A DNA stretch of 64,000 bases from Candidatus Nitrosocosmicus oleophilus (lineage in GTDB: Archaea; Thermoproteota; Nitrososphaeria; Nitrososphaerales; Nitrososphaeraceae): assembly GCF_000802205.1 (NCBI RefSeq), contig NZ_CP012850.1, positions 1,798,001-1,862,000 of the forward strand, read 5' to 3'. How positions within the stretch are numbered: the stretch's first letter is position 1; every line of letters starts with the position of its first letter. The position numbers and the translations under genes are program-made. Below, piece after piece: positions 2,745 to 24,397 of this stretch. The notes beneath the pieces are model-generated. The model saw only the letters and a program-made list of their open reading frames with translations. It searched no databases and was not told where the DNA came from.

Positions 2745-2871
2745 TAATTTTAAATTTTCTATTCAAAGTATCCAATTTAAACCATCGACTCATTTGACCA
2801 CCATCACTCTGGGGTTTTGATAATAAATATTTGGTAAAGTTAAATAATTTGTCTTAAATATTATATATTGT

Positions 2872-3369
2872 TTGCAACTAGCATTAAGGAGAGTTAACGG
2901 CTATATAATCCGAAGATGTGCTTATGAAGATTTAAATTCGGTAATCAGCATTAATTTAAAGACTCTTCCGGAACACTATACCGAGTATTTTTTCGAGTCT
3001 CTTTTACGCGAAATTCCAGAAGCATTTATCATTGCTGAAATTAATAATGTGGTGGTAGGCTATATAATGTGCAAATTAGAATTTGGTTTCTCGAATTTTA
3101 GGAAACTCGGGTTCGTGAAAAAGGGCCATGTCGTATCAATAGCATTGTTGCAAGAGCACAGAGGAAAAAGTATAGGTGAGGCATTGATGATGGAAGGAAT
3201 TAACGGGGTATCAACAAGAAAGGGTGACGAAATATATCTAGAAGTTCGTACTAGTAACGGTCCTGCAATCTCATTATACCAAAAACTTGGATTTCAAATC
3301 AAATCCGTATTGAAATCTTATTATAGAGATGGGGAAGATGCCAACTTGATGGCTTTGGAAATAGCGTAA
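2872..3369 (+). CDS. GNAT N-acetyltransferase, RimI/Ard1-like
   Basis: A GNAT-fold acetyltransferase of 165 residues that uses acetyl-CoA. The acetyl-CoA pyrophosphate loop is visible as QEHRGKSIGEALM (motif A), preceded by the VVSIALL strand and followed by YLEVRTSNGPAISLYQKLGF (motif B), which is characteristic of RimI and NatA-type protein N-terminal acetyltransferases. The substrate is therefore probably a protein alpha-amino group, though this is inferred. The start is a TTG shortly after an AT-rich TATA-like stretch (around 2850-2865), consistent with a leaderless transcript. No close operon partner is seen. Confidence 0.85.
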   Translation: MQLALRRVNGYIIRRCAYEDLNSVISINLKTLPEHYTEYFFESLLREIPEAFIIAEINNVVVGYIMCKLEFGFSNFRKLGFVKKGHVVSIALLQEHRGKSIGEALMMEGINGVSTRKGDEIYLEVRTSNGPAISLYQKLGFQIKSVLKSYYRDGEDANLMALEIA

Positions 3370-3439
3370 AACAAACAAATTCAAAGATTATCTTTGTGCC
3401 AAAATATGAATTAAATATCTGATATTTTGCTATATCAGT

Positions 3440-3574
3440 ATGAATATCTTTGAGCCCTCCACCTTATTGGCTATTTTCCCATATGTTTTCATCTCTGCTT
3501 TTCCAATATTTGGGATAATATTGGTTACATATTGGTTGGTAAAGGACTGGAGATTAAAAATCAAAAAAAATTGA
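3440..3574 (+). CDS. Putative 44-residue single-span membrane protein
   Basis: A short ATG-started frame encoding 44 residues. The N-terminus is short and polar (MNIFEPSTL), the middle of about 26 residues is strongly hydrophobic (LLAIFPYVFISAF, then GIILVTYWLV), and the tail is basic (KDWRLKIKKN). This is the pattern of a single membrane helix with its C-terminus inside the cell. It lies 70 bp downstream of the acetyltransferase on the same strand. Nothing identifies a family. The regular hydrophobic/positive layout supports a real gene, but the short length leaves doubt. Confidence 0.45.
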   Translation: MNIFEPSTLLAIFPYVFISAFPIFGIILVTYWLVKDWRLKIKKN

Positions 3575-4010
3575 TTTAAAAGTAGTTTTTGGTTTCAACT
3601 TCCTTTATCATCATAATACCGTTAATTGGTATAGGGATTGAATTTCTTGTCATTTTATGCACTGCCTATGATCGATGGATTTTTTATCTTACCACGTAAA
3701 ATGGAAGTCTCAACATCATATTTGTACCACGCCCTTTAGAACCATTACTATGGTTCATCTTAGAAAAACCACGTGCAGATCAGAGTCAAAATCTTGTGTT
3801 AAAGGATGTCAGGATAAACGCGCAATGAAAAAACTACTTGTCTATACTTTTAATTTCAAATTTTGTTCTTTGGAGAAAAAAAATTCTATCAAAACCAACT
3901 GATAAGATTCTTCTATTGTAGACAATAAACGATTATTATTTAACCAATGAGTACATTTTTTTTTATCCTGTATTTAATCTAACTAGACTATTAGGGTCAT
4001 TGAAATCAGT
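3575..4010 (+). other. Intergenic, no supported gene
   Basis: AT-rich stretch. A 75-codon frame at 3675-3902 has no domain, a Cys/Lys/Ser-biased composition and no promoter spacing, so I do not call it. I see no RNA gene or repeat here. Confidence 0.5.
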
Positions 4011-4304
4011 TTGCTGATAAAGGGGAGAGAAAGGGGTAAAACAAAGTATCGGGACAAGTGTCAAATCTTTTACTTAATTGTAAAGAGTTGTATAGGCAAG
4101 TATCAAACCAAAAATAAGCTTAGTTACTACAGTTCATATAAAAGATTGAATGAATATTTGGCAGACTTGATACGTTTGAATATGCTACTCTTTGACGAAA
4201 AAAAGCAAAGATTCATAGCGACTCCCAAGGGAAATGATTTTGTACGAAAATATGATAATATTATAGAGTACATCCCATCTTTCAAAACAGATTATGAGAT
4301 CTAG
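4011..4304 (+). CDS. Small winged-helix DNA-binding protein
   Basis: A 97-residue protein matching the short winged helix-turn-helix proteins common in Thaumarchaeota (HTH_45-like). A basic start (KGRERGKTKYRDK) is followed by helices (IFYLIVKSCIGK), a recognition region (SYYSSYKRLNEYLADLIRLNML), and a two-stranded wing ending in the typical ATPKGNDFVRKYDNII. It probably acts as a local transcription regulator. The target is unknown; the membrane protein and TetR gene just downstream are candidates. The TTG start is the most upstream possible, and a slightly later start is also plausible. Confidence 0.75.
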   Translation: MLIKGRERGKTKYRDKCQIFYLIVKSCIGKYQTKNKLSYYSSYKRLNEYLADLIRLNMLLFDEKKQRFIATPKGNDFVRKYDNIIEYIPSFKTDYEI

Positions 4305-4483
4305 TTACAACCATTAGTGAAGGTGGACATCCTCTTTATTTAATACCAAACCTGTTCAAATATTCTATTTATAAAGGTCAATCTGAAGGCCACTATCATT
4401 CATTCACGTAATTAAAGCTCATAGCCCCATCCTTCATATTCTATAAGGTTATTGTATTTCTCTATAACGATTCTATTAGTTTT

Positions 4484-4513
4484 ATTGACTGACTGGTCAG
4501 TAATACTTATATG
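4484..4513 (+). promoter_or_regulatory. TetR-type operator next to TATA box
   Basis: An inverted repeat ACTGAC-TG-GTCAGT (4488-4501) lies directly upstream of a TATA-like box (ACTTATATGA, about 4505-4513). The TATA centre is about 27 bp before the ATG at 4536, which fixes that ATG as a leaderless start. The half-sites resemble operators bound by TetR/AcrR family dimers. A TetR gene is encoded at the end of the transcript, so autoregulation is the simplest reading. Confidence 0.6.
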
Positions 4514-4535
4514 ATCATGTTTGCTAGATAGATAT

Positions 4536-5678
4536 ATGGAACCAATCCTTTCTGCTTCTACCAATGCTTTTAAGTTTTCCATGATTGTGCTGATATTTGC
4601 ATCCATTGGTTCCATAATGCAAATAAGTGGAGGCAATTGGGATGTAACCTCACATTTATTGCTAACCCCGGAATCGTTTTTTACACCTTCTCATGCCCTA
4701 CTTTACACCGGGATAGGTATTTTGTCACTTTCTTCTATCATTGGTGGGATCCTTATGCTAAAATATAGAGAATTAAAGAAGAGCGGTTTAGCACTATCAT
4801 TCAAATTACTTATTATCGGATCAATAATATCAATAATATCTGGCCCAAGCGATTTTATTTGGCACCAAACTTTCGGAGTAGATGGATTTTTGAGTCCGAC
4901 GCATCTGATGCTAATTACAGGAATGCTGATTAATACTTTAGCTGTAGCAATCGGACTGGTTCGATTAAATACATTTGTCAAGAGCGGTATCTTTTCTCAA
5001 CTTGGGAGGATTTTTGCCGTTATATCCTTAATCGCATTATGGCTAATTTTGATATCCTATGTTTACATGTTTGCTCTGCCAATTTCTGATGGTGAATTAT
5101 TTAACTTTAATCTGAACCCAATAGCAGAATCGTTAATAGCATTGGTATTCTTACCCTTGATTAATTCAGGAATGTTCCTGTTTGTGTTAAAGAAAACTCG
5201 CACTTTCGGATTCGCTAGCGCTGTAGCTACAGGTGTTATCTTATTAACAGCATTTACTAGTATACTTCCGTCTCAAGCGCTTTCGAATTTTCTCCCTTTT
5301 TACCTTTTAGCGATTATTCCATTTGTATTAGTTGACATGCTAATTTATGGCAAATTACCAATAGGCAATAATAGAAAAATCAGCAATAAACAAAAATTCG
5401 CAATAGCTGGTGCTATTTCTGGTTCGCTTTTTTATGTAATAGGGTATCCTCTTCTTCCTCTGGCCCTTTCAAGTTACTTGATGCCTGTGAATTTGGAAGA
5501 GACAGGATTTGTAACAATTGTTGACATAATTCCAAGCTTTGTTAATTCTTTACACTTGGTATTGCCAATAACCATTATTATTGGTGCTATCATAGGAGTT
5601 TTGTCTGCCAGGATTTACGAAAGAATCGATGGTTTTAAGGAAAAAAATTCAAAATCTGATAAAGTGATTTATGAATAA
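4536..5678 (+). CDS. Polytopic membrane protein with duplicated His motif
   Basis: An integral membrane protein of 380 residues with about ten hydrophobic helices; I do not recognise its function. Two related segments recur: NWDVTSHLL then FFTPSHALLYTG, and DFIWHQTF then FLSPTHLMLITG. Each pairs an acidic/aromatic-His motif with a P-x-H motif at the start of a helix, so the N-terminal half looks like an internal duplication carrying four conserved histidines. Metal or haem ligation is possible but unproven. I take ATG 4536 rather than an in-frame TTG at 4521, because of TATA spacing. The stop codon overlaps the TetR start by one base (TAATG). Confidence 0.8.
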   Translation: MEPILSASTNAFKFSMIVLIFASIGSIMQISGGNWDVTSHLLLTPESFFTPSHALLYTGIGILSLSSIIGGILMLKYRELKKSGLALSFKLLIIGSIISIISGPSDFIWHQTFGVDGFLSPTHLMLITGMLINTLAVAIGLVRLNTFVKSGIFSQLGRIFAVISLIALWLILISYVYMFALPISDGELFNFNLNPIAESLIALVFLPLINSGMFLFVLKKTRTFGFASAVATGVILLTAFTSILPSQALSNFLPFYLLAIIPFVLVDMLIYGKLPIGNNRKISNKQKFAIAGAISGSLFYVIGYPLLPLALSSYLMPVNLEETGFVTIVDIIPSFVNSLHLVLPITIIIGAIIGVLSARIYERIDGFKEKNSKSDKVIYE

Positions 5679-6337
5679 TGTGTGCAAAGGTTACTTTACA
5701 ACACAAGGTAGAAATTCAAGATCGTATAATCGCTGCTGCACTAGTATCTTTTTCTAAAAAAGGATACGATAAAACAAGAATGGATGATATAGCGCTAGAG
5801 TCTAAGGTGGGCAAGGGTACAATCTACATCTATTTTAAAAGCAAAGAGGATCTTTTCTATGCATTATGTGAAAAGAACTTGATTGAACTAAGAAAACAGC
5901 TATTTTCATTATTTGTTACCAGCAATAAAAACGATGAATTAAATAATCAAAAACTGATTTCCGATACGAAGGGATACTACAATAACTTTAGTCATTTCGA
6001 AAATAGTTACATAATTTTTCTAGAAATTCTGTCAAAATCGACCCGAGATGAAAAATTAAAATCAGCAATGTATTCTCAACACAAGAAGGTGACCGAGATT
6101 ATGAAAGGATATATCCTAAGTTACCTCAAAGGTGACGAGAAAGCAATTATTCCGGATGATCGTGACATTGATTGCATTGTTATGAGTTTAATTGCAGTTT
6201 ACAACGGACTAATGATAAACAGACTACTTGGAGTAGAAGAGGAAGCAAACAAAAAGACATGGGTTGACATCGTTAGCAGAATTCTTGGGACCACCATGAC
6301 TACCATGACTACCATGACTACCCCGAAGGTAGAATAG
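5678..6337 (+). CDS. TetR/AcrR family transcriptional regulator
   Basis: A 219-residue repressor with a classical N-terminal TetR helix-turn-helix: IIAAALVSFSKKGYDKTRM, then DDIALESKVGKGTIYIYFKSKEDLF. The C-terminal helical domain should bind a ligand and dimerise. It overlaps the upstream membrane gene by one base, so the two are translationally coupled and very probably in one operon, controlled by the inverted repeat at 4488-4501. The extreme C-terminus is encoded by three 9-bp units (6296-6322) giving repeated MTT, probably a recent slippage product outside the fold. Confidence 0.92.
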   Translation: MCAKVTLQHKVEIQDRIIAAALVSFSKKGYDKTRMDDIALESKVGKGTIYIYFKSKEDLFYALCEKNLIELRKQLFSLFVTSNKNDELNNQKLISDTKGYYNNFSHFENSYIIFLEILSKSTRDEKLKSAMYSQHKKVTEIMKGYILSYLKGDEKAIIPDDRDIDCIVMSLIAVYNGLMINRLLGVEEEANKKTWVDIVSRILGTTMTTMTTMTTPKVE

Positions 6338-7328
6338 CATATCTGTGGTAAGTCTTTTGTTTGTACTTTGTTCCCTATACTAATTTCTCTTCACTACTCT
6401 AAAAATAATGCTTTTAGGTATTTGTTCGGCATCTTAATCATGTATGGCTTGTGATAATAACACTAAATGGGATATCATTAAAATAAAAAACTTGTTCAAG
6501 TGATGGGTTGTTGGAAATCTAAATTCATATTGCTTACAATTATTCTATCGGAATAAACATCTCTTCTTGAATTAATTGGGAATATTGTTAATTGTTTGAG
6601 ATAAGATCATGAAGTGTTCCATCTATATCTTTTTAACGAAGAATGTATATTACTGCGAACAAGGTTCTTATAAAAGCATATTTGCTGACAAGCCAAGATA
6701 GGTGTCTACTTATTACTTTCTATATTGACATTGATTCTATGATACCTGTAAGGATCCTTCCACTCAGTCATTGATATTTCGATCGTCATAATTAACTTCA
6801 GATTTAGGTTCTAGTGCGGGTTAGCATAAAAGAAAAGTAAAATAAAGGCTGTTAAGTAAAAAATGTCCTTTGGACATTATGGCTTTATTTCTCGCAAGCC
6901 ATCAGGATAAATGATATTGAGAAAGAATCATAACAAAAACAATCGCCTATTTCGCCTTTTTATTCCCTATAGGGTTTATAGTATGAATGAAAGATCGTGT
7001 TCTCAGAGATTGACGAGGTTCGTTAAACATAAAATTGTAAATTTAGATATTTTTTGTTTTTTCTAGTAGACACTAAATGGTAGTTTGAGGCTTAACATTT
7101 AGCTAATTAGTATTAGTTCCTTCTAGTGGGAATTTAAGTAAGTTCAATATCGTACCAATTAGACAATTTGAAATAAATTTTGACCATGGTGACAAATACA
7201 GTCGGTAAAGATTTGACAAGAAGGTTTCCTAAAAGGACCAAAAATCTTTCAATTCATATTTCAACAGAAAAATCTCTACGCGAGCCTATTTTATTAATCC
7301 TATCTTTTTATAAAAAAATGGTTTAAAG
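6338..7328. other. Gene-free 1 kb, one nested hairpin
   Basis: No coding frame with support on either strand. The only structure I see is a nested inverted repeat at 6841-6889. The inner arms AATGTCC and GGACATT are separated by TTT; the outer arms AATAAAG and CTTTATT flank them. It could fold as a two-part stem in RNA, but it has no T-tract or promoter spacing that would prove it. Confidence 0.4.
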
Positions 7329-16058: not shown

Positions 16059-16649
16059 CTAATAGTTAAGTGTGGGGCCCAAAGAATTGAGCTCTGTAGT
16101 AATACATAAACTCAGTTGGTCATTCTGCAATATGGTAAAGCCCGGTTTGGCTTCTGTCAATAGAATATTAACTTGGTCCAAAACCAACTGTCTGTCATAT
16201 CGAGTCATATTTTGATTCATCAATAGATCCCAAACCCCATCCATGTCTTTTACTGGTTGGCTACTTTCTGCTGCTGCTGTGTTTATTAATGCTATATCAT
16301 TGTTAGTTGGTATTAGGGAGTTAAAGTTTTGCACACTTTTTGTATAGTTTTCAGTCTGGGCAGTTCCTGAGACAGTTTCTTCAATCTTTTTAAAGCAGTC
16401 TACTATGTCAGTTTGATTTTGGCTATTTGAGTGTGAGTGTGTGGGACAAGTAGCTTGTGTTACATTTGAACCAAAGCAGATATTTGGGTCATATGGGTTA
16501 GACTGTGGGCTTTGAGCAGTAACATATTGCTCCAAATGAAGTGTTACTGCTGCCGCTAGTCCGGCTATGGCAAAGGAAAGTACAGCAAACAATGCCAGCA
16601 CTTTTCCTTTTTGGGACATTTTTGTATTAAACATTTTCCTATTTTCCAA
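16059..16649 (-). CDS. Membrane-anchored extracellular protein in MCO operon
   Basis: A 196-residue exported protein. A basic start (MSQKGKV) and one hydrophobic helix (LALFAVLSFAIAGLAAAVTL) act as signal or anchor. The mature part is Asn/Gln/Thr-rich with several sequons and four Cys (CFGS, ATCPTH, DCFKK, LCITT) that could form two disulfides, plus a small His cluster (CPTHSHSNS). It starts 13 bp after the multicopper oxidase stop on the same strand, so the two are almost certainly co-transcribed and may work together at the cell surface. No family recognised. Confidence 0.7.
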   Translation of the reverse strand: MENRKMFNTKMSQKGKVLALFAVLSFAIAGLAAAVTLHLEQYVTAQSPQSNPYDPNICFGSNVTQATCPTHSHSNSQNQTDIVDCFKKIEETVSGTAQTENYTKSVQNFNSLIPTNNDIALINTAAAESSQPVKDMDGVWDLLMNQNMTRYDRQLVLDQVNILLTEAKPGFTILQNDQLSLCITTELNSLGPTLNY

Positions 16650-16662
16650 ATCACATCTTCAC

Positions 16663-18123
16663 CTATTTAACGATATTAAGCAATCCCATCATGCCAAAGT
16701 CTCCATGGAACATCAGGTGGCAGTGATAGACAGTTTTTCCTACGAAATCATCAAATGGGATTCTAATTACTACTTCTGATTCTATTGGAAGATCAACAGT
16801 GTCTTGGCGTCCGTGAGCGTCATATGGTTTTCCGTTAATAGACATTACCTGAAAATCATTTACATGAATATGGAATGGATGAAGATACATCGTTGAGTTG
16901 TTATCCAGGTTAACTAACTTCCACTCCTCTACAGTTCCAAGTTTTGCTGTAATGTCGACTCTATTTGGATCAAATGTCTTATTATTAATATAGTACTTCC
17001 AATCTCGGTCGTTTGATGAGAAGTTAAGGACCCTATGTTCAGCGACGGTAGCATTACTGAGGTCTCGGTTTGGAATCAAGGCTGTTCCTAATATATCTGA
17101 AGCAGATGTTCCATTTGTTTGATTACCTTGTTGTATATTTATGGTTGCGATGTGTCTATCATATGGCGCAGTAAACATGTTATTAGCTGAAACTAATTCA
17201 ACTGGTCCGCTACCATTGGCAGTTACCAATACGTCATATCTCTTTCCTGAAGACATGAAAAGAGTATCATTTTTCCACACACTCCAAACTGGACTTCCAT
17301 CTTCTGCTATAATGTAGAACATGTTGCCAGGCAGTTGTACTGTGAGTTCGTTTTCAGGACCAATATTTGCAAGACGCCAAAGCTGGGTTTCACCTGGTTT
17401 AATGTTGATAGTAGGATTAACATCCCCATTAACAGTTAGGCGTTCATGCATTGTCATTGTATTACTCAATTTATAGGTCTTAGCAAAAAGTTGGTCAAAT
17501 GGAAAATCTTTCATGGCAAAGGTATGTTGTGTTACATTTTGCAAGGACTCTGGCAGTAGCTTTTCTAACCCTTCAACAATAAACATCCCAGATAGGCCGG
17601 ATGCAACTTGTGCATAAGAGAGTTTATGCAAATGTGAATGATACCATAAAGTTCCTGGGTCATGATCTTTAGGAATATCGAGAACATAATGCTGTGTCGC
17701 ACCTGGAGGAACATCAAGAAGTACGTTGTCTGATACATTTGCAGGAGATACATGAAGTCCATGATAATGAAGATTAGTAGACTCATTGAGATTATTTACC
17801 AGATCAATTTCAACCCTATCTCCTGGATAGACGTGGAATGTGGGTCCTAGAAGCGAACCATTATAGACCATTGCAGTGGTTGTCTGGTTATCAACTTTAC
17901 CTATCTTGTATTCTGCAACAATTGTAGTGTTTAAGACTCCATCTTTACTCCATACATCTACAGGCTTTGAAAAGTTCATCCCAGCCAGAGGCGAAGTTTT
18001 ATTTTGGGCAAAAGCCGTTTGACTTGATTGATCAAACGCAAACATTGCCAATGCAAACATCGAGATTGTAAGGGTACAAAGTAAGGTACAGGCCTTGATT
18101 TGTGGTCTAATGTGTAGGATCAA
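16663..18123 (-). CDS. Secreted laccase-like multicopper oxidase
   Basis: A copper oxidase that couples one-electron oxidation of a substrate (metal ion, phenol or nitrogen oxide) to O2 reduction outside the membrane. All four copper motifs are present: HYHGLHVS, WYHSHLHK, HPFHIHVN and YHCHLMFHGDFGMMG. These supply type 1, 2 and 3 ligands, with a Met after the last motif. Three cupredoxin domains fit the length. A TAT-independent signal peptide (CTLLCTLTISMFALAMFAF, cut after AFA) is encoded within a duplicated 310-bp cassette. I choose TTG 18123: it overlaps the leader-ORF stop (TTGA) and follows a GGAGGAGAT Shine-Dalgarno; an in-frame TTG at 18159 is the alternative. Confidence 0.9.
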   Translation of the reverse strand: MILHIRPQIKACTLLCTLTISMFALAMFAFDQSSQTAFAQNKTSPLAGMNFSKPVDVWSKDGVLNTTIVAEYKIGKVDNQTTTAMVYNGSLLGPTFHVYPGDRVEIDLVNNLNESTNLHYHGLHVSPANVSDNVLLDVPPGATQHYVLDIPKDHDPGTLWYHSHLHKLSYAQVASGLSGMFIVEGLEKLLPESLQNVTQHTFAMKDFPFDQLFAKTYKLSNTMTMHERLTVNGDVNPTINIKPGETQLWRLANIGPENELTVQLPGNMFYIIAEDGSPVWSVWKNDTLFMSSGKRYDVLVTANGSGPVELVSANNMFTAPYDRHIATINIQQGNQTNGTSASDILGTALIPNRDLSNATVAEHRVLNFSSNDRDWKYYINNKTFDPNRVDITAKLGTVEEWKLVNLDNNSTMYLHPFHIHVNDFQVMSINGKPYDAHGRQDTVDLPIESEVVIRIPFDDFVGKTVYHCHLMFHGDFGMMGLLNIVK

Positions 18124-18230
18124 TGGATTGATATCTCCTCCATCAATTGACCATTCCAAACAATTCCTGGTAGGTTAAAAAACACCTTAAATTTATTATT
18201 AATATTATATTTTAGAGTGCTCATAGTCAT
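18120..18230 (-). CDS. 36-residue leader ORF upstream of MCO
   Basis: An ATG-started small frame (MTMSTLKYNINNKF..., ending EEISIH) lies between the promoter and the oxidase. Its ATG is about 28 bp downstream of the TATA centre, so transcription would begin at or just before the AUG. Its stop TGA overlaps the oxidase TTG start (TTGA), and a GGAGGAGAT ribosome-binding sequence lies inside its end. This is the arrangement of a translationally coupled leader peptide. The same ORF exists in the second cassette with only codons 6-7 changed. Whether the peptide itself matters is unknown. Confidence 0.5.
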   Translation of the reverse strand: MTMSTLKYNINNKFKVFFNLPGIVWNGQLMEEISIH

Positions 18231-18253
18231 GAGTAACGCAATCTTGTAGCAAT

Positions 18254-18264
18254 CGCTATATAAG
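18254..18264 (-). promoter_or_regulatory. TATA box of MCO promoter
   Basis: Minus-strand CTTATATAGCG, preceded by an A/C-rich BRE-like ACACAAAC, is a strong archaeal core promoter. The expected start site is about 18233, next to the leader ATG at 18230. It lies within the duplicated cassette. Confidence 0.65.
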
Positions 18265-18463
18265 GTTTGTGTTATTTTGCAAATATTTGACGATAGATAC
18301 AAAATGCCCGAGTATATTCTAATTATATATATTATTTGAAAAGTCTATCATTATGACGTTATTGTTACAACTATCAAACAAAATATTTTCACTGTGAAGA
18401 ACCAGCTAGCGGCCAGTAGACTGGTTTTCACAATCCTATATGAGAGTGTTGGCTGCTAATATT

Positions 18464-19045
18464 CTATTTCAAAAGCCACATATAGAAATCCCCGCCCCCG
18501 TCGGCATCAATCTTGACCTTATAAAGTGCAACTGAATTCTCTAAGAATGCTAGTTTTCCAGTAGCATTTTCATCAAAAACTGCCACACCATTACTTTCGT
18601 AAGATTTATCTGGACCATATTGGCCTATTGCTTGGAAGTTATAACTTGCATCATCCATATTGTGAGTCGTTATGGTGTAGTTACCTTGGAGATAAACTGT
18701 GTTGTTATTTCTCAAAGTTTCGGTGTTGTTTCCTATCGAATCAACTTTTAAAGTTCCATTGATAAGTCCATCGTTTGTATGATTCACGTAAAGATTTGGT
18801 TCCGATTCGGATTTTGGTGAGCTAACATTATGCTGATAGTGCTGCATATAAAAGGGAGTACCTAAATCAAGAGTTTCTGACAGGTCACTTAATGATCCAG
18901 TATCATTGACAGCAAATGCATTTGGAACAAAAAATCCTGTTTGACTTGATTGATCAAACGCAAACATTGCCAATGCAAACATCGAGATTGTAAGGGTACA
19001 AAGTAAGGTACAGGCCTTGATTTGTGGTCTAATGTGTAGGATCAA
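18464..19045 (-). CDS. Secreted protein sharing the MCO signal peptide
   Basis: An exported protein of 193 residues from the TTG at 19045 (an in-frame TTG at 19081 is the alternative). Residues 1 to about 37 are identical to the multicopper oxidase N-terminus, including the signal peptide. After DQSSQT the sequence diverges completely (GFFVPNAFAV). The mature part is Asn/Thr/Ser-rich with many sequons, looks all-beta (VYLQGNYTITTHNMDDASYN) and ends in GGGDFYMWLLK. No family is recognised and there are no Cu-binding motifs. It probably shares regulation with the oxidase through the duplicated promoter. Confidence 0.75.
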   Translation of the reverse strand: MILHIRPQIKACTLLCTLTISMFALAMFAFDQSSQTGFFVPNAFAVNDTGSLSDLSETLDLGTPFYMQHYQHNVSSPKSESEPNLYVNHTNDGLINGTLKVDSIGNNTETLRNNNTVYLQGNYTITTHNMDDASYNFQAIGQYGPDKSYESNGVAVFDENATGKLAFLENSVALYKVKIDADGGGDFYMWLLK

Positions 19046-19152
19046 TGGATTGATATCTCCTCCATCAATTGACCATTCCAAACAATTCCTGGTAGGTTAA
19101 AAAACACCTTAAATTTATTATTAATATTATATTCTTTAGTGCTCATAGTCAT
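19042..19152 (-). CDS. 36-residue leader ORF, second copy
   Basis: Same leader frame as at 18120-18230, differing only in residues 6-7 (KE instead of LK). Stop/start overlap TTGA with the downstream secreted gene and the GGAGGAGAT site are preserved. Confidence 0.45.
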   Translation of the reverse strand: MTMSTKEYNINNKFKVFFNLPGIVWNGQLMEEISIH

Positions 19153-19175
19153 GAGTAACGCAATCTTGTAGCAAT

Positions 19176-19186
19176 CGCTATATAAG
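19176..19186 (-). promoter_or_regulatory. TATA box of secreted-gene promoter (second cassette)
   Basis: CTTATATAGCG identical to the oxidase promoter, in the same position relative to leader ATG 19152. The flanking BRE-like sequence is also unchanged. Confidence 0.65.
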
Positions 19187-19248
19187 GTTTGTGTTATTTT
19201 GCAAATATTTGACGATAGATACAAAATGCCCGAGTATATTCTAATTAT

Positions 19249-19816
19249 GAACAGAATAATCGGAAAATTCCTGAACTATGAGGAGTTACTCTCAGGACAT
19301 TAAGATAAGAAATGTTTCACAGTGAAGTGCACGACAGTGGTATGCAGGAAATTCGATATATATGATAATACTTTCATCTGAGGTGGATTCAAGTAATTTG
19401 AGTAGAGCATAATGGGATATGGCACAAAAATGGCATCGAACTTTGTAATATGAATGATCTAACCTGCTTATCCACATCAAAGGAATGTATTATGCCTAGG
19501 AGAGTCCGGAGGATTGTGATTCAAAAAATGAATAAAATCCTTCATGCTTCGAGAATGTTCATTTGTAAATTTATTATCAAATTCTCTGTGTGAAATGATT
19601 CGGTGAGAAAGTCCCATAATGTAAAGTATTTGATTCATTCGCAATCTCTGAATGTATATGAGAGTACTACAATATCGCCAGCTATGTGACACCCAACGTA
19701 TTCGTTGTACCTACGATACTAAAAGTATAGAATAAACATGCTTTTCAATATTGCAAGACACTTACCACATATTTAGTAATTGGGCGTAACGTAATAATCT
19801 GTTTTAAGAGAGGTTC
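19249..19816. other. Intergenic, one short palindrome
   Basis: Two minus-strand frames of 62 and 71 codons lack any feature and are not called. A TTCAC-A-GTGAA palindrome at 19316-19326 matches TTCAC-T-GTGAA at 18388-18398; both lie just upstream of the two cassettes. Confidence 0.4.
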
Positions 19817-21022
19817 TTATTTTTGTTCTCTTTTGCTTTTCAAATGATCCACAAGAAATGTTGCAAAGGCACCTACTGCCCCAGCGACTATTAGCGCAAT
19901 TGCGTCACCCCATATATCCCAAAAGCCGATAAATGTTTCACTTACAGTTAGGGGTGGGAGTACAGTAATGGTCAAGTTAGCTTTACTAGTTATGTATCCA
20001 GTTGTAGGATATTCCTTAGATATTTGAAACTCGGGATCTGAACCTCCGGTTACTGTATCATTAAACATAGGCAATTTTGATGATGTGGTTTGTATCGACA
20101 TTGAAGCTAAAATTGGTATATCATAAACGCCTACTGGTGTTTGTGGAGATGCTTGTACCCTAAATAATGGGGGATGAACTCTTTCGGCAGATACATTTAA
20201 GCCATCAAAACTGTAAGATGGGTCGTTATCAAATGTTATACTAGTAACATTATCAGAGAGGGGTGTTTCAAATTCAGCAGGAACCAACTCCTCCTCTCCC
20301 TGTCTGATAACTGAATCCTTTGGATCTGTCATGATGTTTATAATACCAGGCGGTACAGCGATCCAATTTGTAAAATCCCTAACTTCATTTGATTTGAAGG
20401 ATTCTGCCGTATAAAAAGACAAACCATAATTGCTTGGAGAATGTATGGCATCTAGATCCAGTCGAAGGTTCACGTGTCCCGGACCTATAGTAGAACCACC
20501 AAAGGGTAAAGTGTAATTTTCCTTAGAGTAAACTAGCGCACGGGAACCTGTGGAAGACAATTGGTAAAGATATTCGCTCCATTTTCATTCCTTTGCTTCG
20601 ACAAAAAAATCGTAGTTCGCTCCATTATAGCCTGAATTCTCAGGCAGTGCAACAATAGCAATAAGCATACCATACCTCATACTTTTATCAGGCTGACTAA
20701 ATACCGACCCATTTTCGGAATTTGATGCTAACCAAAAGGTAGTATTCAAATTCTTTCCATCACTAACGTAATTTACTGCCAGTATGTTTGCATAATCAGA
20801 CCCTAATTGAGTACTGGCATTACCATACGTTTGAATAAAATCATTCTTCTGATAAATAATTTCCTTGTCAGAGATTAAAGATTTATCAAAAGAAGGTGAT
20901 ACAGCAAAAGCCTGGGAACATAAAGTGAAGAGAATAATGAATGTCATAAAAAATACTGATGATAACAATACATCTTTAAATACAGTAACCGAGGAAATCA
21001 AAATCAGAAAACGTTTTTTCAT
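19817..21022 (-). pseudogene. Membrane-anchored surface protein split by in-frame TGA
   Basis: A signal peptide (MKKRFLILIS, then VFFMTFIILFTLCSQAFA) begins one continuous frame of about 400 codons interrupted once, by TGA at 20585-20587 (context EAKE-stop-KWSEYLYQL). The part after the stop is all-beta, ends in one membrane helix (IWGDAIALIVAGAVGAFATF) and a basic cytoplasmic tail (KSKREQK). Together this is a normal type I surface protein with an immunoglobulin-like ectodomain (NLTITVLPPLTVSETF). The absence of a frame change and of other lesions points to a very recent nonsense mutation, a base error or readthrough. Function unknown. Start taken at the MKKRF Met. Confidence 0.7.
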
Positions 21023-21885
21023 AGTTTGGAAAACCTGCAAGTATATTCCTATGTTTTAAAATTTGAACACATGTAATTAAGCCTTTACTACGCTGTAAAT
21101 TAACTAAATAAAGACAGAGTTATTTCTGTCAGATAAGTTAGAAACGATCTCAGGAAGACTTTTATTTTTTTGCCTTTTCTTTGATACACACAAGGCTCAA
21201 GGTTTGTAATATTCTGTTAGTTTATCTTAGTGCCCTGTGAATGCTTAACTCGCCAACAAACTATTGTCGAGCACGCGGTATCTAAACTTCAGAAAGTAAA
21301 TGAGATATCCAAGTACCAACTAAGAAATTGGAAAAGATTTAAGCTTTGAACCAACAAAATCCATATCTTGTTGCAAGTTAGAATTGGTGAGTAATTGTGA
21401 TTGTGATTTAATAATCGATATCGCTGTCATGATTTAAATCAAATATTAGATCCTAGATACAATGTCATTACTGTGAAAAAAGATCTTAATATTACTATTT
21501 AATCTCTTTTGGGAATAGTAATCACATTAATCTCAAGGTAATTTTCACACATATATTCTATATTTGCTCAATCCGGTAATACTTTTGGTCGAGGTGGAGG
21601 AGGAGACATTGGAGCTCAGGGTTCACAAGGTGAAAGACGTCTCTTGGAAGGGGTTGTCCTAGAATGAGCAAATTACGCACTGCACCTTTTTTGGCAGGAA
21701 TTTTACCAGTTAATCCAACCAGCGATGCACATGGAGTCTGTACACCAAAATTTAGCACACCAAAATCATTTTTTTAAAATCTATTAGTTTGGTTATCAGA
21801 CGCTATGAACGCAATTAGCAACCTTGGCAAGTTAATACAGGAAGTGATTTGGTTTGAACATAGCTTCAAGGATCACCTTATTGCA
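21023..21885. other. Gene-free 0.86 kb with a possible secreted-gene scrap
   Basis: No intact gene. Plus-strand codons around 21550-21667 read IFAQSGNTFGRGGGGDIG and then QGSQGER, which resembles the mature start of small thaumarchaeal secreted Gly-rich proteins, but no start or signal peptide is in frame. A 66-codon minus-strand frame over the same bases is not supported. Confidence 0.35.
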
Positions 21886-22299
21886 TCAACTGGTCGACCA
21901 TTTTCTCATCCATTGTAGCAAGTTGATAATTGATTCAACAAGATCTTGACCTTTAGGAGTTAGCCGATATTCTACTCTGGGAGGGATCTCATTAAAAGAT
22001 TGCCTGTTTAAGATACCGCTTTTTTCTAATTCCTTTAATCGAATAGTGAGAGTTTTACTGCTGAAACCCTTCATTGACTTTCTAAATGTTAAGTATCTGA
22101 CTGGGTCATTTGAACAGCAAAGGGGAATCAATATTTCTAGCGTCCCCCTTTTAGTGATTATCTTTCTTAATTCAGATGTTTCTTTCATTAGATTTTCCAC
22201 ATCATAACCATAGAAATTACAAGAATTATTTTCCTTGAGTATTGGTAATTTACCTGATTCTAATGCAGTTTTATTCTGTCTTATTCCTTTAGTTTCCAT
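21886..22299 (-). CDS. HxlR-type winged-helix regulator of the arsenic cluster
   Basis: A 137-residue DNA-binding protein. The middle matches HxlR-family winged helices: GTLEILIPLCCSND, FRKSMKGFSSKTLTIRLKE, LEKSGILNRQ, and the wing VEYRLTPKGQDLVESI. HxlR proteins normally have an N-terminal Cys; here a Cys pair (LCCSND) and CNFYGYD could sense thiol-reactive arsenite, which is inference. It is transcribed away from arsM from a shared TATA region (22334-22342), the classic geometry for a regulator of the divergent operon. The ATG start leaves a leader of about 13 nt. Confidence 0.85.
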   Translation of the reverse strand: METKGIRQNKTALESGKLPILKENNSCNFYGYDVENLMKETSELRKIITKRGTLEILIPLCCSNDPVRYLTFRKSMKGFSSKTLTIRLKELEKSGILNRQSFNEIPPRVEYRLTPKGQDLVESIINLLQWMRKWSTS

Positions 22300-22333
22300 G
22301 ACTTCACTTACTTTACCATTTTACTCTTGCCAA

Positions 22334-22342
22334 TTTAAATAG
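22334..22342. promoter_or_regulatory. Shared TATA region of divergent ars promoters
   Basis: TTTAAATAG lies 25 bp before arsM ATG 22365, giving a leaderless transcript. Because TTTAAA is self-complementary, the same element is about 25 bp upstream of a plausible start for the HxlR gene. One bound regulator could control both. Confidence 0.55.
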
Positions 22343-22364
22343 TTTCTTTAGTAAACCTATATCT

Positions 22365-23171
22365 ATGGATAAACAATTACAGTTAAAGGAAAAGATTAAA
22401 GAACAATATGGAAATATTGCACTAGACGGAAATTCTAATTCTTGTTGTATGCCCTCTAGCGACTGCTGCGGTACATCAGGAATTATCTTTTCTCCTTTTA
22501 CTTCATCAAAAGAAGTTGGGTATGAGTCTGACAAGTTAAACTCTATACCGGAATCATCAGTATTGGGAGTAGGATGTGGAAATCCCACAAGATTTGCTGA
22601 TTTAAAAGAAGGTAATATCGTTGTTGATTTAGGCTCAGGGGCAGGTATTGATGTTTTTCTGGCTGCTAATATTGTAAAAGAAAGTGGGAGGGTCATTGGA
22701 ATAGACATGACTGAAAACATGCTTTACAAGGCTAGAGAAAATGCAGAAAAACATGGCTACAAAAATGTTGAATTTAGACAAGGAGATATTGAACAAAGAA
22801 TACCAGTTGAGGATAATTCTGTTGATGTGGTTATTAGCAACTGTGTTATTAATCTGACAACCAACAAGGAAAATACATTCAAAGAAATTCACAGAATTCT
22901 TAAATCAGAAGGAAAAGGAAGAATGATTATATCAGATCTGGTTACATCTAGGGAAATGGATCTCGATTCTATTAATACTGATAATTGGTGCAGTTGTATT
23001 GATGGTGCATTAACCAAAAAAAACTACATTGATAGTATTGCAAAAGCTGGATTTACCCGCATTGAGATACTAGATGAGAAATTATACATGGAGTTGGATG
23101 AAGATAAAGACAAAGTAAATCAACAAAAGAGACAAATTACTAGTATTTCCGTCAAGGCCGTTAAAGTATAA
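22365..23171 (+). CDS. arsM: Arsenite S-adenosylmethionine methyltransferase
   Basis: ArsM methylates As(III) to mono-, di- and trimethyl arsenicals using SAM. The SAM-binding motif is VVDLGSGAGIDVFLAA. The Cys residues that coordinate arsenic in ArsM are all present: GVGCGNP, ISNCVINL and CSCIDGAL, and a further Cys-rich N-terminus (SCCMPSSDCC) is added. Length (268) is normal. It heads a plus-strand operon with arsC six bases downstream and an aquaporin. Expression is probably arsenite-controlled by the divergent HxlR protein. Confidence 0.93.
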   Translation: MDKQLQLKEKIKEQYGNIALDGNSNSCCMPSSDCCGTSGIIFSPFTSSKEVGYESDKLNSIPESSVLGVGCGNPTRFADLKEGNIVVDLGSGAGIDVFLAANIVKESGRVIGIDMTENMLYKARENAEKHGYKNVEFRQGDIEQRIPVEDNSVDVVISNCVINLTTNKENTFKEIHRILKSEGKGRMIISDLVTSREMDLDSINTDNWCSCIDGALTKKNYIDSIAKAGFTRIEILDEKLYMELDEDKDKVNQQKRQITSISVKAVKV

Positions 23172-23177
23172 GATTAG

Positions 23178-23651
23178 ATGGGGAGAAAAGTGATTTGGAT
23201 GAAATTTTCATTTGGCAAAAAAGATCATAATGATGCAAAAAAAACCGTCCTGTTTGTATGTGTTCAAAACGCTGGAAGAAGTCAGATGGCAGAAGGTTTC
23301 TTCAGAAAATATGCTCAAAAAGACTACGCACCGGTTAGTGCAGGTACAGTTCCTACTTCTCAAATTAATCCGATTGCAGTTGAGGTTATGAAAGAAGTTG
23401 GAATAGACATCAGAAGTCAAAAGCCTAAAGATTTAACTGAAGATATGATGCGAAATTCAACAATCATAGTCAATATGGGGTGTATGGACGATAAGTACTG
23501 TCCTGCATTATTTTTGCCAAAAGTTATAGACTGGGGTATTGAAGATCCTAAAGACAAACCAATAGAGAAAGTGAGAGAAATAAGAGATGAAATTGAAAAA
23601 AGGGTTTCAGAAATAATTGAGTCTACCAAAGACAATAAAATTCCAATTTAA
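23178..23651 (+). CDS. arsC: Arsenate reductase, LMW-phosphatase type
   Basis: A 157-residue thioredoxin-linked-type arsenate reductase or low-molecular-weight phosphatase. The catalytic loop is FVCVQNAGRSQMAEGFF (C-x5-R), and the downstream acidic loop is DWGIEDPKDKP. It should reduce As(V) to As(III), feeding ArsM and the channel encoded next. It follows arsM by 6 bp. The first ATG gives a short extra N-terminus (MGRKVIW); the Met at 23199 is an alternative. Confidence 0.9.
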   Translation: MGRKVIWMKFSFGKKDHNDAKKTVLFVCVQNAGRSQMAEGFFRKYAQKDYAPVSAGTVPTSQINPIAVEVMKEVGIDIRSQKPKDLTEDMMRNSTIIVNMGCMDDKYCPALFLPKVIDWGIEDPKDKPIEKVREIRDEIEKRVSEIIESTKDNKIPI

Positions 23652-23704
23652 GGGAACTCTATTTAGTTCAGTTAATTAGACATCCAAGTAACTATTGAAA
23701 AATC

Positions 23705-24397
23705 ATGTCAAAGGAATCGACTTTTGAGTCTGCAGTTGGCAAACTTTCCACCAATCAAAAGAGGTTTATCGCTGAAGTCATAGGTACGTTTATTGCTGTT
23801 GTTTTAGCTACGGGTTCAGTAGTTATTGATGCAAAGTTAAATGGCATTCTTGGCTTACCATTTATCGCATTTGCTCCTGTTGTAGGTGTTGCAATAGCTG
23901 TATACCTTTTTGGAAAAATCTCGATGGCTCATTTTAATCCTGCTGTATCTGTTGGATTTTTGATTACAAAGCATATTACAGGAAAGCTATTCGCTTTGTA
24001 CTTGTTAGCAGAAATTGTAGGTGCTTTTTTAGCAAGTCTTTTTGTAAGTATTGTAGTAGGTAGGGAAGCAAACCTAGGAGCTAATGCACCTAATTATTCA
24101 TATCCTTTACCTTTGATATTTGGAATTGAAGTTTTAGCATCAGCTCTTTTGATGGCGGTGATATTGACAGTAGTTTATACAAAAGGCCTGAAAGGATTTG
24201 GAGGTATAGTCATCGGAGGTATCGTTGGATTGGATATCTTATTCTTGGCTGTCATATCTGGGGCATCAATGAATCCTGCCCGTTCATTAGCTCCAGCAGT
24301 GTTATCGGGAGTATGGACAAATCTATGGTTGTACTGGACAGCAACGTTTGTTGGTACCTCATTGATCGCTTTGATATATAAAAAGAAGTTTGAATGA
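23705..24397 (+). CDS. MIP/aquaporin channel, probable arsenite or glycerol facilitator
   Basis: A six-helix major intrinsic protein of 230 residues. Both half-helix motifs are present: HFNPAVSVGF and SMNPARSLAPA. It is the third gene of the arsenic operon, 53 bp after arsC. Channels in this position (AqpS in rhizobial ars operons) export As(III) down its gradient after arsenate reduction, so arsenite exit is the best inference here. It replaces the ArsB/Acr3 pump, which is absent from the cluster. Water or glycerol transport alone cannot be excluded. Confidence 0.88.
   Translation: MSKESTFESAVGKLSTNQKRFIAEVIGTFIAVVLATGSVVIDAKLNGILGLPFIAFAPVVGVAIAVYLFGKISMAHFNPAVSVGFLITKHITGKLFALYLLAEIVGAFLASLFVSIVVGREANLGANAPNYSYPLPLIFGIEVLASALLMAVILTVVYTKGLKGFGGIVIGGIVGLDILFLAVISGASMNPARSLAPAVLSGVWTNLWLYWTATFVGTSLIALIYKKKFE

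Follow-up and report, generated by a model that had tools for sequence, protein, structure and literature searches.

Duplicated 5' module in front of two secreted protein genes

How did two secreted proteins unrelated in sequence come to be preceded by practically the same promoter, leader and signal peptide? The locus that raises this question lies in a 64,000-bp stretch (hereafter the window; C1:1798001-1862000) of a complete, single-contig 3.43-Mb Ca. Nitrosocosmicus genome (G000), that of an archaeal ammonia oxidiser from soil. An earlier note on this DNA had described twin 310-bp blocks at a 922-bp offset with a clustered three-base difference, and alignment bore this out. Copies A (18017-18326) and B (18939-19248) are direct repeats on the minus strand, offset by 922 bp and identical at 307 of 310 positions without gaps. 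The three mismatches to B are clustered in four bases (18212, 18214 and 18215 in copy A), and identity breaks off sharply at both the 5' and the 3' edge. Copy A supplies the promoter, an upstream ORF (uORF) and the signal-peptide codons of a multicopper oxidase (MCO) gene, while copy B precedes the gene of a small secreted protein.

Genome-wide figures given here rest on searches. When the module was searched against its own genome, A and B were returned at 99-100% together with a single 74-bp match of 78% that covers promoter sequence of an MCO paralogue some 50 kb distant (C1:1866480); no third full copy was found. The check proposed in the earlier note, i.e. a search for more copies before other secreted genes, gave two full copies in the genome, and all copies were located at MCO or MCO-neighbour loci. 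Among 70 family genomes, module-like DNA was present in four relatives, all of the same genus (G013, G002, G010 and, weakly, G003), and one further genome contained two matches of approximately 25 bp. None of these relatives possessed the two-copy arrangement. In the 15-25 kb part of the window, no inverted repeats of at least 20 nt were detected, only direct ones. A Pfam scan of the 10 proteins encoded between 14.4 and 24.4 kb revealed no recombinase, and no RNA element was matched in Rfam.

Promoter, upstream ORF and start codon

The TATA box, 36-codon leader ORF, ribosome site and signal-peptide codons listed in the earlier note are indeed present in both copies. In the 5' to 3' direction of the minus strand, each of the copies contains a TTATATA box (18257-18263 in A, 19179-19185 in B), 33 nt, the ATG of the 36-codon uORF (18120-18230 and 19042-19152), a ribosome-binding-like GGAGGAG (18135-18141, 11-13 nt before the TTG, and 19057-19063) and a TTG start codon. 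The uORF stop codon TGA is formed by the last two bases of this TTG and the following A (TTGA). The main start is likely to be the internal TTG (18123 and 19045) rather than the TTG that opens the longest ORF, as relatives carry an ATG or GTG in this position.

The same plan of TATA box, uORF and start recurred in all 11 loci compared, which comprised nine MCO genes of the clade and the two module-bearing small genes, from three genera. The spacing between TATA box and uORF ATG was 30-33 nt in 10 loci and 39 nt in one. In every locus, counted from the main start, the uORF stop was located at -3, -2 or +1, and a G-rich Shine-Dalgarno (SD)-like stretch (GGAGG, GGTGG or similar) lay before the start inside the uORF, at a long spacing of about 9-13 nt. 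With shuffled leaders, a uORF of this kind arose about 0.6% of the time per locus; as the 11 loci are related, the joint probability is not a simple product, and several of them are only 50-60% alike. In the window, the feature was found in two of 40 long ORFs, both being the genes in question. A selected uORF peptide was rejected: substitutions were spread evenly over codon positions with no synonymous bias, and the closest uORF pair differed by two synonymous and nine non-synonymous codons. It therefore looks as if only the position and frame of the uORF were conserved.

Palindromes beyond the identical block

The 3.43-Mb genome has just two TTCACWGTGAA palindromes, one upstream of each copy and both outside the identical block, at 18388-18398 (61 bp beyond the 5' edge of copy A) and at 19316-19326 (67 bp beyond that of copy B). 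A one-mismatch form is situated at a matching distance before the MCO paralogue. The palindrome is a possible candidate operator. The flanks between palindrome and module are alignable yet diverged, and their homology is modest, the shuffle p being 0.009 under one scoring scheme and 0.07 under another. Because the palindrome is shared upstream of both copies, beyond the identical block and with diverged DNA in between, the simplest reading would be that the duplicated segment once extended past the palindrome, with only the 310-bp block having been homogenised later by conversion. The 3' edge of the block would simply be the point where homology ends.

The two proteins and their neighbour

The MCO (16663-18123, minus strand; 486 aa from the internal TTG, with the longest ORF starting at 18159) is a three-domain protein with PF07732 (Cu-oxidase_3), PF00394 (Cu-oxidase) and PF07731 (Cu-oxidase_2), all above the curated Pfam cut-offs. 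Its translation contains the four copper-ligand histidine motifs HYHGLH, HSH, HPFHIH and HCHLMFH. At this level, i.e. as a three-domain secreted MCO in Nitrosocosmicus and not as one of the named types MCO1-4, it is comparable to the MCOs of ammonia-oxidising archaea, several of which respond to biofilm growth according to the part of PMC12448741 considered here. That part makes no mention of the 5' unit or the partner gene of this MCO.

The small secreted protein (18464-19045, minus strand; 193 aa) consists of the module signal peptide and a domain confidently predicted to be an eight-strand beta-barrel, with a mean pLDDT of 87 over the mature part. Secreted proteins of about 170-220 aa from across Nitrososphaeraceae form its family, of which 14 members were aligned. 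No known family could be fitted to it: there was no match in Pfam or NCBIfam, none of the 14 members matched the Pfam barrel families, and PF03018 gave no match in 41 genomes, in a search whose control was likewise silent. The predicted barrel resembles uncharacterised bacterial barrels (4pux, 3g7g and 3c5o) at TM of about 0.6-0.7 and allene oxide cyclase 4h6a at about 0.5, the best Foldseek E value being 2.9e-3. The predicted fold thus shows some resemblance to allene oxide cyclase/dirigent-like barrels, and its gene adjoins that of a laccase-like oxidase; dirigent proteins work with separate oxidases (PMC9344732). Unlike dirigent proteins, it gave no Pfam match; the genus likewise yielded no PF03018 in the search above, and the fold match has an E no better than 3e-3. 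We can only speculate about a joint function of the barrel protein and the MCO.

Between the two transcription units lies the 3' flank of the small gene (18370-18463, minus strand), of which no other copy was found in the genome. It contains a hairpin (-23.3 kcal/mol, z -1.8) that is only weakly better than shuffled sequences, for which reason its reading as an intrinsic terminator of the small gene was rejected. On the other side of the locus, a third secreted protein is encoded (16059-16649, minus strand), with no match in Pfam or NCBIfam. Wherever the downstream region of a relative was available, an alignable homologue came immediately after the MCO. The protein ends in a conserved LGPxxNY-like tail.

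The locus in related genomes

The earlier note had called the second protein unrelated to the MCO. This is true of its sequence, but not of its location, as the gene is a conserved MCO neighbour in other genomes. An orthologue was present directly upstream of the MCO in G002, G005 and G035, that is, in three genomes of two genera, and a decayed pair was observed in G001, where the small gene is a pseudogene before an MCO remnant (L066, ~5940-6700). In G035, the small gene begins with a native signal peptide that is clearly unlike that of the module. The same native type was found in G001, and in G005 a native signal peptide is separated from the mature part by a frameshift (L047, ~4550-4700). 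In G002, the signal peptide is of the module type. Of the 14 small-protein relatives in the alignment, just two carry the module, too few to demonstrate the possible route to surface protein families suggested in the earlier note. As a separate observation, the small gene was repeatedly lost where its own 5' end had been kept, as seen from the frameshift in G005 and the decay in G001.

G013 and G010 lack the small gene, and their module runs straight into the MCO. The sister genome G013 offers an 'empty site': 1275 bp match end to end, at 85%, the flank of copy B joined to module A and the MCO, while the context of copy A matches only from the module onward. The flank of G013's single module-MCO and the upstream flank of copy B are thus orthologues. 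In G003, a leader of module type stands before the signal peptide of another MCO type, although this assignment is weakly supported. The same genus also includes a relative with rpoB 96.8% identical to that of the window's genome. These arrangements mark the 310-bp module, copy A included, as the MCO clade's own native 5' region.

Recombination history

The conflicts between trees point to three or more recombination events close to the signal-peptide junction, and the module was apparently put onto the small gene twice. In the small-gene tree, the window's genome and G002 both carry the module without being sisters, so that two changes of the 5' type are needed. A clade of G000 and G002 was rejected (AU p=0.009), which disfavours a single origin of the module-small gene fusion. 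As for G010, its mature MCO groups with a second MCO type (p=0.009 against the alternative) while its 5' unit groups with the window's module (p=3.5e-7 against the alternative), and the switch point is the end of the signal peptide. The tree also allows the split that unites the G010 module with all b-type modules (p=0.26), so that this comparison did not discriminate. All these p-values are optimistic, since the AU groups were named after the trees had been seen; the alignments are short with few taxa.

Similarity of the module to that of the window is higher in G002 (79%) than in G010 (75%), whereas rpoB shows the opposite order (79.7% in G002 and 90.3% in G010). The closeness of the G002 module, when set against rpoB, suggests transfer between lineages.

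Origin of the two copies

We consider it probable that the native 5' unit of the MCO recombined onto the small gene, its conserved neighbour, and that the copies were then kept or made alike by gene conversion. In this process, recombination would have replaced the 5' end of the secreted beta-barrel gene with the MCO unit, and conversion would have kept or made the two copies nearly identical; both the direction of transfer and the gene conversion are what we infer. Possible, but less likely, is a very recent insertion, in which the MCO gene already in place received, by recombination within its module, DNA comprising the module and the small gene (e.g. as a circle or from another strain's template), so that the 922-bp tandem arose and the likeness of the copies stems from their youth. 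Such an event would fit the exact 922-bp unit and the empty site in G013, as well as the mature part of the small gene, the DNA of which is nearer to that of G035 from another genus (77.8%) than to that of G002 (73.5%). On the other hand, the palindrome found upstream of both copies in an otherwise diverged flank suggests a duplication longer and older than the 99% identical block. Gene conversion and recent insertion are here judged from one genome, which does not separate them cleanly. An ancestral tandem pair, with later deletion of the small gene from G013 and G010 through recombination of the direct repeats, appears improbable. A 310-bp direct repeat predicts exactly such a deletion and its product would resemble G013, yet no two-copy relative is found outside the window's genome, and two independent losses would be needed together with conversion in G000 to hold 99% identity.

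The earlier note had spoken of a 'mobile or recombined' 5' module. The recombined part holds, since the module was put onto a protein natively equipped with another signal peptide and further combinations were observed in other species. Mobility, in the sense of an element spreading 5' ends to many secreted genes, is very hard to credit: although four genomes show the 5' unit joined to differing mature proteins, there are at most two full copies per genome, all at the loci mentioned above, with neither inverted repeats nor a recombinase among the 10 neighbouring proteins. A transposable element was rejected for want of extra copies, terminal repeats and a recombinase of its own. Hardly more believable is an artefact of assembly or scaffolding, against which stand the single-contig genome, the three mismatches between A and B, the unique gene between the copies and the separate fusion of module and small gene in G002.

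Proposed expression model

An archaeal transcript begins about 25 nt after the TATA box; therefore, the transcripts at this locus would open a few bases before the uORF ATG, making the uORF a nearly leaderless cistron. According to the model, RNA polymerase would initiate just upstream of the uORF ATG, and ribosomes would translate the 36 codons in a leaderless-type manner before terminating, and then re-initiating, at the start codon of the main gene. The signal peptide of the module would export either protein, and the MCO and the small protein would each be made from its own, equivalent promoter. The coupling of uORF and main gene, the co-expression of the two proteins and their joint function are inferred.

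Termination-reinitiation is a mechanism demonstrated in Haloferax (PMC6728339). The modules are similar to the archaeal overlapping genes described there in that the stop of the upstream ORF overlaps the next start (ATGA in relatives, TTGA here) and an SD-like site lies within the upstream ORF. In contrast to those genes, the upstream ORF is here a uORF of 30-38 codons with a fixed TATA spacing and a peptide without visible selection; the coupling is putative.

Relation to known systems

As for promoter-signal-peptide shuffling in archaea, nothing closer than the systems of mycoplasmas was found in the literature. In the phase-variable Vpma/Vsp lipoproteins of Mycoplasma, a dedicated recombinase (Xer1) switches one promoter among a gene family (PMC2268961). 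Both systems have a conserved 5' untranslated region and conserved signal-peptide codons followed by differing mature parts. They differ in that neither a recombinase (10 proteins, Pfam) nor inverted sites (15-25 kb) were found here and the proteins are unrelated. Furthermore, instead of one active promoter with silent partners as in Vpma, the full promoter sequence is present at both genes.

What makes the locus interesting is the conserved geometry of the uORF together with the recurrent swapping between the oxidase and its partner: a whole expression-and-export unit has been swapped recurrently in ammonia-oxidising archaea, in which genetics is hard and promoter evolution has been little studied, the breakpoints falling at the signal peptide or inside it. 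As a tentative and rather doubtful proposal, a conserved archaeal cassette of palindromic operator, TATA box, leaderless uORF of 30-38 codons that stops on the start codon of the main gene, and signal peptide might govern the secreted copper oxidase clade and be swapped as a unit with the barrel partner, keeping the pair co-expressed outside one operon; the barrel might bind the oxidase's products or steer them. If the uORF and the palindrome are functional, they would constitute a simple, testable switch for a clade of secreted oxidases in Nitrosocosmicus, and the conserved partner protein would become a candidate accessory factor for the MCO.

Further observations in the neighbourhood

Sister genome L049 contains tandem truncated copies of the MCO and the third gene around a single N (2761-6515), representing either a real duplication or a scaffold artefact. 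The adjacent ORFs at 19817-20560 and 20585-21040 of the window correspond to one 405-aa protein in L049 and are split here by an in-frame stop. The MCO locus is also adjoined by genes for an HxlR regulator, an ArsM-like methyltransferase, a low-molecular-weight phosphatase/ArsC-like protein and an aquaporin-type channel (21886-24397), which probably form an arsenic cluster and are conserved in G010 (L048).
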